Source of the DNA: Candidatus Jordarchaeales archaeon
GTDB lineage: Archaea > Asgardarchaeota > Jordiarchaeia > Jordiarchaeales > Freyrarchaeaceae
Reading direction: 5' to 3'
Assembly (NCBI GenBank): GCA_038889235.1
Contig: JAWAHN010000001.1
Span: forward strand, 468,499 to 532,498
Length of the DNA: 64,000 bases
Under the pieces are notes generated by a model that searched no databases, was not told the origin of the DNA, and worked only from the letters and a program-made list of their open reading frames with translations. This document shows, one piece after another, positions 12,607-18,931 of the stretch (position 1 is its first letter; every line of letters starts with the position of its first letter). Position numbers and translations under genes: made by a program.

Positions 12607-12699
12607 GGGCCCCTAGCTCAGCCTGGTAGAGCTTAGAGCGCTAAAAGCACCCGGTTCGCACCCGGGAGGCCGCGGGTTCAAATCCCGCGGGGTCCACCA
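12607..12699 (+). tRNA. tRNA-Ala(CGC) with a 16-nt insertion between D arm and anticodon arm
   Basis: The acceptor GGGCCCC (12607-12613) pairs with GGGGTCC (12689-12695), followed by A and an encoded CCA. The D arm is 12616-12632. The anticodon arm CCCGG-TTCGCAC-CCGGG (12650-12666) gives anticodon CGC with U33 and A37. The T arm is GCGGG-TTCAAAT-CCCGC. Between the D arm and the anticodon stem lie 17 nt instead of 1, so 16 nt are extra; removing them leaves a standard 74-nt tRNA. The insertion can fold as TTAG-AGCG-CTAA, but I could not draw a strict bulge-helix-bulge. A TATA-like AGAATAAATAGG lies about 35-45 nt upstream. Confidence 0.88.
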
Positions 12700-16487: not shown

Positions 16488-16659
16488 CGGGCCCCGCGGG
16501 ACTTGTTCTGGGAAACCCATTTGAACCCTTAGCCGGGAAGGGTGAACCCCCTTGGACCCTGCGACCACCAGCTTTCTACGCTTAGGGCACCGCAGGCGTA
16601 CGCCTCAAAACGTTGGCGCCCTGTCAGGCATTAATAGATCCTGGCTGGGCGAGGGGCCC
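16488..16659 (-). tRNA. tRNA-Arg(GCG) interrupted by five introns
   Basis: Acceptor GGGCCCC (16659-16653) pairs with GGGGCCC (16495-16489); discriminator G is 16488 and CCA is not encoded. Inferred introns: D loop 16637-16623 (15 nt), position 29/30 16613-16598 (16 nt), 37/38 16589-16574 (16 nt), 50/51 16560-16529 (32 nt), 58/59 16520-16503 (18 nt). Splicing leaves exactly 75 nt with perfect stems: D stem GCCC/GGGC, anticodon stem CCAGC/GCTGG, loop CTGCGGA, T stem GCGGG/CCCGC. Each intron allows a 4-bp central helix between 3-nt bulges, for example GUUC/GAAC at 58/59 with a UGGG-UUU-CCCA intron hairpin, CUGC/GUAG at 37/38 and CAGG/CCUG in the D loop. A TATA-like CTTAATATGC lies at 16682-16691. 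Confidence 0.85.
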
Positions 16660-16722: not shown

Positions 16723-18609
16723 TTACATTTTCGGCGGTATTTCTATGCCAAGCACTTTCATAGCGTTTTTCAGCGTTTGTAGTGTTACTTGTACTAGTGC
16801 AAGGCGCGCTTTCCTCGTTTCAGGGTCGTCTGCTGAAAGAACGGAGCACTCTTCATAGAACTTGTTAAACTTTACTGCCAACTGGTGGGTGTACTCTGCT
16901 AATATGTTTGGCTTGAGGTTTTCCGCGGAAAACAAGATTACTTCCGGGAACTTTGCTATATGTTTGATTAGGTCGGCTTCTCTTTGCGTTGAGAGCTTTT
17001 CAGGGTTTATCTCCGGGCTTGGAGACTCTCCCGCCCTTTCAAGTATGCTTTTAGCTCTAACCGCCGCGTACTGTATGTATGGCCCTGTTTCCCCGTCAAA
17101 GTTTGTGACTTTTTGGTAGTCGAATATTATTGTTTGCTCTGTGCTGAACTTTGCAAGCCAGTATCTTACAGCACCCACTGCTATTATCTCGGCTATCTGT
17201 CTTTTCTCGAGCTCCGAGGCGTCGGGGATATTCTTGTTCACTTGTTCATAAGCGCACAGCATAGTCTGGTTTATGACGGCGTCGGCGTGATACCCAACCC
17301 AGTTCCCTTCCCTTCCCGAGAACCTTTCCCCCATAAGCTGGACGTGTTTGTATGAAAGGTGTATGGAGTTCTCGGCCTGTTCCAAGTATCCCAGCAGCTT
17401 TAGGCACGCTCTAACAGTCTTCTGCAAGTATTCTTGCTCGTATCCTATGACGTTTATCACCCTGTCTGCTCTCGCGAAGCAAGTCATGGGTGTGGCGAGT
17501 ATTGGAGATGTCGTCCAAAGGTCCTTTCCGTTGAATTGCTTGTGCCAAGGGCGGTACTTCAAGTCTGCTTCAAGAAGGCCGAACTTCCAAAGCTGGTATG
17601 CTATGTCGTGGGCAACGTATGTCGGAACCATGTTAGACCTAACAAGAACCTTGTCGGGGTTCTTTTTGTCTTTAAATTCCTCTAGGCGGCTGAGTTTTGC
17701 CACAAAGCAACCCTTGTATTCCCCTTCAGTTTCCCAGACGAAGTACTCAGACTTTTCGAGGAGTTTCATAGTGCGTTCCCAGAGGCGGGCTTTCGAAATG
17801 TCACTTTCCCAGACAAGTAAATCGTAGGTTATCCCCACTCTAGCGGCTGTCTCAAGGTTTGACTCCACGCATTTCTCGGCGAGCTGCCTGCTGAAAAGTG
17901 AGACTTCACCGTTGCTTAGCATTTGTTTCATGACTTCGTCTACTTCAGCCTCGAGTTCAGGGTTCTTTTCCAGCTTCTGGGCTGCCTTAGCGTAGACCAG
18001 CCCGTACCAAAAGTCGAGTTTCATGTCCCTATCCCTTGGAACCTCTAGGTGCAGGTTGTTTAGGAACGCCCAGACTAGGACCCCCATTTGGCGGCCTAAA
18101 TCGTCTATGTAGTTTTGGACTTCGACATTCCAACCGCAGGCTCTTAAAAGGTTGGCAACTATGTCCCCTAAAACAGCGTTTCTTAGGTGCCCTATGTGGA
18201 GAGGCTTAGTAGGGTTAACTGCAGTGTGCTCGACTACTACTTTCCTCCCCTTTCCTATGTCGCAAAAACCGTACTTGTCCCCTTCCGCCATAACGGTCTT
18301 CACTACAGCACTTGCAAGCCTCACTTTATCGAGGAAAAAGTTCACGTAGCCTGGCTCTACGGCTTCAACACGCTCAACGAAGTCCGGCTTTTCCATGCAC
18401 GAAACGATTTCTCTGGCTATTTCAAACGGTGTACGCCTTAGATGGCGGGCAAGCTTAAACGGGACGGTTGAAGATACATCGCCAAGTTTTGGGTCAGGAG
18501 GCTCAGACAAGTTTGAGACATCGCTCCTTGAAACCGCATTTGAAAAACCAAGCTTTTCCAAAGTCTGCCAAAGAGCGTCTGCAATACTCGCTTTAACCGT
18601 TAGAATCAT
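16723..18609 (-). CDS. argS: Arginyl-tRNA synthetase
   Basis: This class I synthetase of about 628 residues charges tRNA-Arg. An N-terminal Arg-tRNA-synthetase domain precedes the catalytic core with TKPLHIGHLRNAVLGD near residue 135 (HIGH motif). The C-terminal anticodon-binding (DALR-type) domain contains NFDGETGPYIQYAAVRAKSI and ends with KNAMKVLGIEIPPKM. The KMSK-like loop appears as QLMGERFSGREGN, a degenerate form common in ArgRS. ATG 18609 has GGTGG 5 nt upstream and is preferred over GTG 18618. Two tRNA-Arg genes flank it on the same strand. Confidence 0.95.
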   Translation of the reverse strand: MILTVKASIADALWQTLEKLGFSNAVSRSDVSNLSEPPDPKLGDVSSTVPFKLARHLRRTPFEIAREIVSCMEKPDFVERVEAVEPGYVNFFLDKVRLASAVVKTVMAEGDKYGFCDIGKGRKVVVEHTAVNPTKPLHIGHLRNAVLGDIVANLLRACGWNVEVQNYIDDLGRQMGVLVWAFLNNLHLEVPRDRDMKLDFWYGLVYAKAAQKLEKNPELEAEVDEVMKQMLSNGEVSLFSRQLAEKCVESNLETAARVGITYDLLVWESDISKARLWERTMKLLEKSEYFVWETEGEYKGCFVAKLSRLEEFKDKKNPDKVLVRSNMVPTYVAHDIAYQLWKFGLLEADLKYRPWHKQFNGKDLWTTSPILATPMTCFARADRVINVIGYEQEYLQKTVRACLKLLGYLEQAENSIHLSYKHVQLMGERFSGREGNWVGYHADAVINQTMLCAYEQVNKNIPDASELEKRQIAEIIAVGAVRYWLAKFSTEQTIIFDYQKVTNFDGETGPYIQYAAVRAKSILERAGESPSPEINPEKLSTQREADLIKHIAKFPEVILFSAENLKPNILAEYTHQLAVKFNKFYEECSVLSADDPETRKARLALVQVTLQTLKNAMKVLGIEIPPKM

Positions 18610-18651
18610 GGCTACCACCGGCCAGTGCTTGGAAACCTAGCTTATTTAACT

Positions 18652-18692: not shown

Positions 18693-18849
18693 TGGCGGGT
18701 CTGGAGGGAGTCTCACCCTTTCAGGTTTTGAACCCTCGATCGCCGGCTTTCCCCTGCAAGGTCCCCCGTTATCGACTAGTTCTTCTCGGTGGAACCGGAG
18801 GCCGGCGCCTGTAGGCGTTTGCAGCATATCCTGGCTAGGCCACAGACCC
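18693..18849 (-). tRNA. tRNA-Arg(CCG) interrupted by three introns
   Basis: Acceptor GGGTCTG (18849-18843) pairs with CAGACCC (18703-18697), then discriminator G and encoded CCA (18695-18693). D stem GCCT/AGGC, anticodon stem CCGGC (18805-18801)/GCCGG (18747-18743), T stem GAGGG/CCCTC. Inferred introns: D loop about 18826-18811 (16 nt), 37/38 18794-18749 (46 nt), T loop 59/60 18726-18710 (17 nt). Splicing leaves 75 nt before CCA. At 37/38 exon CUCC can pair with intron GGGG, and at 59/60 UUCA with UGAG, as a bulge-helix-bulge needs. The loop CTCCGGA gives anticodon CCG. A TATA-like AAGTTTTATTTG lies 27-37 nt upstream. Confidence 0.88.
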
Positions 18850-18931
18850 GCTAAGTAGAATTTAGACGAGAGAACAAATAAAACTTACCGAGAAAGAAGA
18901 CTGTGTCTATTGTAAAAGTTTTTGAGCTGTT

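Follow-up and report, generated by a model that had tools for sequence, protein, structure and literature searches.

A tRNA-Arg(CCG) gene with three introns beside argS in a Jordarchaeales genome, and its predicted splicing

Some archaeal lineages interrupt their tRNA genes with more than one intron. The Thermoproteales have multi-intron tRNAs that are interrupted in the D and T loops, and 59/60, 20/21 and 29/30 are known intron sites (PMC4090602). The same paper, citing Sugahara 2007 and 2008, gives Pyrobaculum islandicum tRNA-Pro(UGG), whose introns lie at 25/26, 37/38 and 56/57. For Atabeyarchaeia and Freyarchaeia, the main text of PMC11291895 reports introns in 92-95% of tRNA genes, often several per gene and non-canonical; it also gives 'Jordarchaeia' as a later name that has been applied to Freyarchaeia-like genomes as well. 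(alpha-beta)2 endonucleases with a Crenarchaea-specific loop (CSL) have a broad specificity and cut relaxed motifs (PMC6379350, PMC12397907). The published genome of Ca. Jordarchaeum madagascariense lists 6 tRNAs at 95% completeness (PMC9723677).

Here we describe a tRNA-Arg(CCG) gene of a Ca. Jordarchaeum genome, found in a window of 64,000 nt (the whole stretch of DNA that was analysed). We consider it very likely, at roughly 93%, that this gene encodes a functional tRNA whose three short bulge-helix-bulge (BHB) introns are cut by an (alpha-beta)2 endonuclease and whose exons are joined by RtcB.

The tRNA-Arg(CCG) gene and its orthologues

The minus strand from 18849 to 18696 is a tRNA-Arg(CCG) gene, and it is followed directly by an encoded CCA end (18695-18693). 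When 16, 46 and 17 nt are removed, a 75-nt cloverleaf remains, including G73 and with the anticodon CCG. Its stems are 7, 4, 5 and 5 bp long, and T8, A14, G18G19, A21, T33 and T54T55C56 are all present. As the reverse complement of 18693-18849, the locus reads GGGTCTGTGGCCTAGCCAGGATA, the D-loop intron tgctgcaaacgcctac, AGGCGCCGGCCTCCGG, the 46 nt of the anticodon-loop intron, AGCCGGCGATCGAGGGTTCAAA, the T-loop intron acctgaaagggtgagac, TCCCTCCAGACCCG and CCA. Exon 1 (18827-18849; GGGTCTG TG GCCT AGCCAGGATA) covers tRNA positions 1-21 and was defined by intron-aware search and orthologues. The intron-aware search also placed exon 2 (18795-18810; positions 22-37, with the anticodon), exon 3 (18727-18748; positions 38-59) and exon 4 (18696-18709; positions 60-73).

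The best intron-aware score was 25.5; 500 dinucleotide-shuffled versions of the 261-nt stretch reached at most 16.5, so that 0/500 scored as high. This result bears out the sequence-only reading, which had proposed these three introns and a 75-nt tRNA plus CCA. An intron-free reading of the locus found no tRNA, and the gene was missed by ARAGORN and by Rfam, both at the gathering threshold and at E values up to 10.

Upstream, a probable TATA-like promoter box, TTTTATTTG, lies at -34 from G1 (18875-18883, minus strand). Each of the three Jordarchaeum copies of the gene has the box, at -34/-35, suggesting that tRNA-Arg(CCG) has its own promoter.

We found orthologues of tRNA-Arg(CCG) beside argS, in the same order, in two other Ca. 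Jordarchaeum genomes (ArgRS identity 82-84%) and in four sister-family genomes. Among the three congeners, exon identity is 96-99% and intron identity 26-81%, and the D, anticodon and T sites are all kept. Across 16 spliced tRNA-Arg sequences, 99.7% of cloverleaf cells are paired, 11 pairs have changed on both sides and 0/500 shuffles did equally well, a control that is not a strict probability because the aligned genes are related. Alignment with orthologues had been proposed earlier as the check on the exon assignment, and the assignment came through it: the exons are conserved far beyond the introns, and the spliced cloverleaf covaries.

Intron sites shared among tRNA-Arg genes

A second tRNA-Arg gene, for anticodon GCG, lies on the minus strand at 16488-16659. 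It is 172 nt long, gives a 75-nt mature RNA and does not encode CCA. Between the two tRNA genes lies argS, which encodes the 631-aa arginyl-tRNA synthetase (16723-18618, minus strand). The order tRNA-Arg/argS/tRNA-Arg also occurs in a Jordarchaeum congener, in four sister-family genomes and in a distant Asgard genome (G011), where the tRNAs are TCG and CCG; this arrangement may reflect co-regulation.

In tRNA-Arg(GCG), BHB junctions place introns at 20a/21 (16637-16623), 29/30 (16613-16598), 37/38 (16589-16574), 50/51 (16560-16529) and 59/60 (16519-16502), and a congener (G001) has the same five sites. Five introns are most likely the best explanation of this gene; they fit better than the intron model first suggested for it, which we have replaced. 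An automatic model that read the locus as a four-intron 'AGA' tRNA was rejected because the 29/30 and 37/38 junctions are BHB-competent and the five-intron GCG gene matches its orthologues. A narrow check of the literature found no earlier report of five introns in one tRNA.

The D-loop introns of tRNA-Arg(CCG) and tRNA-Arg(GCG) are one nucleotide apart (21/22 vs 20a/21), and both T-loop introns are at 59/60. The near-equivalence of these sites, as claimed in the sequence-only reading, therefore holds. That reading went on to suggest common descent or spread of introns between the two genes. Such direct movement, whether through gene conversion or through transposition, between the genes on either side of argS would account for the matching sites and for a D-loop intron that is limited to the genus in CCG but found across the order in GCG. 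The two D-loop introns also have CCT-(G)-AC in common beside the 3' junction. However, this motif is just the stretch that has to pair with exon CAGG, and the sites are still one nucleotide apart. When the similarity of the CCG and GCG introns was ranked among 528 intron pairs of the genome, the T-loop pair came 517th and the D-loop pair 56th (z 2.4), in a test that is weak because it uses mononucleotide shuffles of short sequences. In similarity, the CCG and GCG introns thus do not stand out from the remaining intron pairs of this genome, and their T-loop introns are unrelated in sequence.

The body of tRNA-Arg(CCG) is nearest to tRNA-Arg(TCG), with 87-89% identity, compared with 77-79% to tRNA-Arg(GCG). 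The T-loop intron follows the same pair across two families. A 59/60 intron interrupts the CCG gene of 7/7 Jordarchaeales genomes. Each of the seven TCG genes modelled, four from Jordarchaeum and three from the sister family, has one too, although its BHB helix is weak in the sister-family genome G004. In the more distant G011, no 59/60 intron was found in CCG or TCG. Judging by this distribution, the tRNA-Arg T-loop intron goes back a long way in Jordarchaeales. The CCG D-loop intron occurs in 3/3 Jordarchaeum genomes that yielded the gene and is absent from 4/4 sister-family genomes, and the GCG D-loop intron occurs in both families. The AGCCAGGAT match between the CCG and GCG D loops, also pointed out earlier, is real; as a link between these two genes it fails, since it is a general tRNA-Arg trait: other tRNA-Arg genes have AGCCAGGAT or AGTCAGGAT in D loops that lack an intron, and the CCT gene has it as well.

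With CCG nearest to TCG, T-loop introns that are dissimilar and a D-loop likeness that is weak, the two genes do have sites in common, but direct transfer of introns from one to the other is unsupported, and we consider it unlikely. We favor a history in which the T-loop and anticodon-loop introns of tRNA-Arg(CCG) would have been inherited vertically from before the split of the two Jordarchaeales families. Its D-loop intron would have been gained at the genus level, or would be older and lost in the sister family.

Other tRNA genes of this genome also carry introns. The tRNA genes modelled were the Rfam-seeded ones and those for tRNA-Arg, and in the class II models (Ser, Leu) the long variable arm is probably counted as intron. 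tRNA-Ala(TGC) and tRNA-Ala(CGC) have an identical 16-nt intron, and tRNA-Val(GAC) and tRNA-Val(TAC) have near-identical introns, which suggests gene duplication or transposition in this genome. In the window, 12607-12699 (plus strand) was called tRNA-Leu(TAA) by ARAGORN and is really tRNA-Ala(CGC), with the 16-nt intron of the tRNA-Ala(TGC) gene at G000:C1:1088344. Three introns, at 9/10, 37/38 and 59/60, interrupt tRNA-Arg(TCG) at G000:C1:1074217 (L089). The one at 9/10 is 19 nt long and does not fit a strict BHB, although its end, AAGGGGGATAA, is kept in genomes G000-G003. A probable tRNA-Cys(GCA), at G000:C2:264905 (L093, L116), has a 59/60 intron, ACCTTCAAAAGGTGAAAA, like the T-loop intron of tRNA-Arg(CCG), and appears to contain further inserts.

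BHB motifs at the intron junctions

In tRNA-Arg(CCG), 11/12 of the cells in the BHB helices between exon and intron are paired; over 54 introns in 19 tRNAs, the count is 190/216 (88%). When the junctions were shifted by up to 4 nt, pairing averaged 38% and never exceeded 80%, in a control that somewhat favors the assigned positions because junction registers were partly picked by BHB pairing. Energy folding of the arms gave the H helices unreliably, and standard folding did not form the T-loop H helix, so the case for BHB motifs is built on the junction-shift controls and on conservation.

The anticodon-loop intron (18749-18794, 46 nt) lies at the canonical site, 37/38. It has a 4-bp helix, CTCC/GGGG, and 3-nt bulges GG^T and AA^A, with the predicted cut following the second nucleotide of each bulge, forming a canonical BHB. 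The corresponding introns of the congeners are only 15-17 nt long, indicating that this intron grew or was replaced here, or that it shrank in the congeners. The T-loop intron (18710-18726, 17 nt, 59/60) also forms a textbook BHB, with the helix TTCA/TGAG (one G.U), bulges AA^A and AC^T, and both inner and outer helices. The intron partner TGAA/TGAG (TGAR) is retained in 7/7 CCG orthologues, although the intron interiors diverge.

The D-loop intron (18811-18826, 16 nt, 21/22) has the weakest BHB of the three, a relaxed motif. AGG/CCT gives 3 bp plus an A.G mismatch between 3-nt bulges TA^T and AC^A, and this pairing is kept in all three Jordarchaeum genomes. The inner helix is only 1 bp, and minimum-free-energy folding favors other pairings there. 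Because the limits of this intron are set by the BHB register, a different exon assignment could be considered, in which the D-loop intron is 15, 17 or 18 nt long and the mature D loop is slightly altered; the tRNA scores of these options lie within 1 point of each other. However, the 16-nt register after GGATA alone gives 3/4 BHB pairs with 3-nt bulges and retains A21, and under the other registers position 21 would fall on a nucleotide that is C, A or G depending on the congener. We therefore regard a shifted assignment as quite improbable and keep the intron at 16 nt.

The same assembly contains a second tRNA-Arg(CCG), intact and intron-free, on a 5.7-kb contig (C6; L096). Were this contig native, it would make the window gene redundant. 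A CofE-like protein encoded on C6 is ~33-43% identical to the genus, compared with 82-84% for ArgRS, and the contig is probably foreign, a contamination of the assembly. Despite that intact copy, it is most improbable that the window gene is a decaying pseudogene with insertions and that decoding relies on an intron-free tRNA-Arg(CCG) from elsewhere, since C6 has no orthology to the genus, the congeners yielded no near-identical copy free of introns, the well-conserved exons of all three congeners keep every stem intact and retain CCA, and the TGAR end of the T-loop intron persists in seven genomes.

Predicted splicing enzymes and comparison with known systems

The genome encodes two PF01974 (tRNA_int_endo) proteins, which we call alpha (C1:1056473) and beta (C3:444309), as well as RtcB. 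In alpha the Tyr/His/Lys triad is intact, and the whole protein aligns with Aeropyrum pernix EndA (3P1Z). In the pairwise alignment to 3P1Z (GIRKPK vs DVEKPR), a lysine of alpha matches K44 of the A. pernix CSL. Beta lacks the catalytic His. An alpha with the triad and a CSL lysine and a beta without the His fit a predicted (alpha-beta)2 endonuclease. A narrow literature search found no paper describing CSL-type endonucleases from Asgard archaea.

With these enzymes, we infer the following splicing route and order of events. The precursor of tRNA-Arg(CCG) would most likely be transcribed from its own promoter. At each junction, exon nucleotides would pair with the intron end to form a 4-bp helix (3 bp in the D loop) between 3-nt bulges. 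The heterotetrameric (alpha-beta)2 endonuclease would cut all three introns, its broad specificity probably aided by the CSL-type lysine loop, and RtcB would ligate the exons into the 75-nt tRNA-Arg(CCG) with its encoded CCA.

For Asgard tRNAs, the orthologues add sequence-level evidence that non-canonical D- and T-loop introns are real, conserved and of BHB type, with only a relaxed motif in the D loop. They also suggest a reason why draft Asgard genomes seem poor in tRNAs, namely that intron-split genes are missed by annotation. With an Asgard endonuclease that has a CSL-type lysine, a connection of enzyme to intron load could be tested directly, close to where eukaryotes are rooted. As a more tentative proposal, for which we would put the odds at somewhat below even, Jordarchaeales tRNA genes may be among the most fragmented contiguous ones known, with five introns in GCG and three in CCG, and may be cut by an Asgard heterotetrameric endonuclease with a loop lysine that was supposed to be specific to crenarchaea. 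If so, broad-specificity cutting and tRNA intron expansion would be coupled in the archaeal branch nearest eukaryotes, either independently of Crenarchaeota or from a shared ancestor.

The locus had at first been placed in a Thermoproteales frame. ArgRS relatives place the genome in Asgard, as a Ca. Jordarchaeum, ruling out a Thermoproteales origin, so the frame serves as an analogy only. The likeness is that Thermoproteales pre-tRNAs can also have three BHB introns in a single tRNA, canonical and non-canonical (PMC4090602), and a heterotetrameric endonuclease of broad specificity. They differ in belonging to another phylum and in their combination of sites. The intron transposition described for Thermoproteales (Fujishima 2010, cited in that paper) puts similar introns into matching positions in different tRNAs, for which the Ala and Val pairs of this genome, and the likeness of the CCG T-loop intron to that of tRNA-Cys(GCA), may be compared; in contrast, the intron sequences of CCG and GCG give no support for transfer. 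As in the crenarchaeal (alpha-beta)2 EndA with CSL (3P1Z, 2ZYZ), alpha and beta are separate genes here, the alignment of alpha to 3P1Z runs from end to end and the CSL lysine is kept; the Asgard proteins would assemble and act in the same way.

The nearest comparison is with the tRNAs of Atabeyarchaeia and Freyarchaeia, likewise Asgard and very closely related, in which non-canonical introns are frequent and more than half of the tRNA genes are multi-intron (main text of PMC11291895). Those counts come from three wetland-soil genomes, and that main text does not cover the present locus, its Ca. Jordarchaeum orthologues, BHB anatomy or the endonuclease. Multi-intron tRNA genes have thus already been reported in sister lineages, and tRNA-Arg(CCG) is a well-supported new example.
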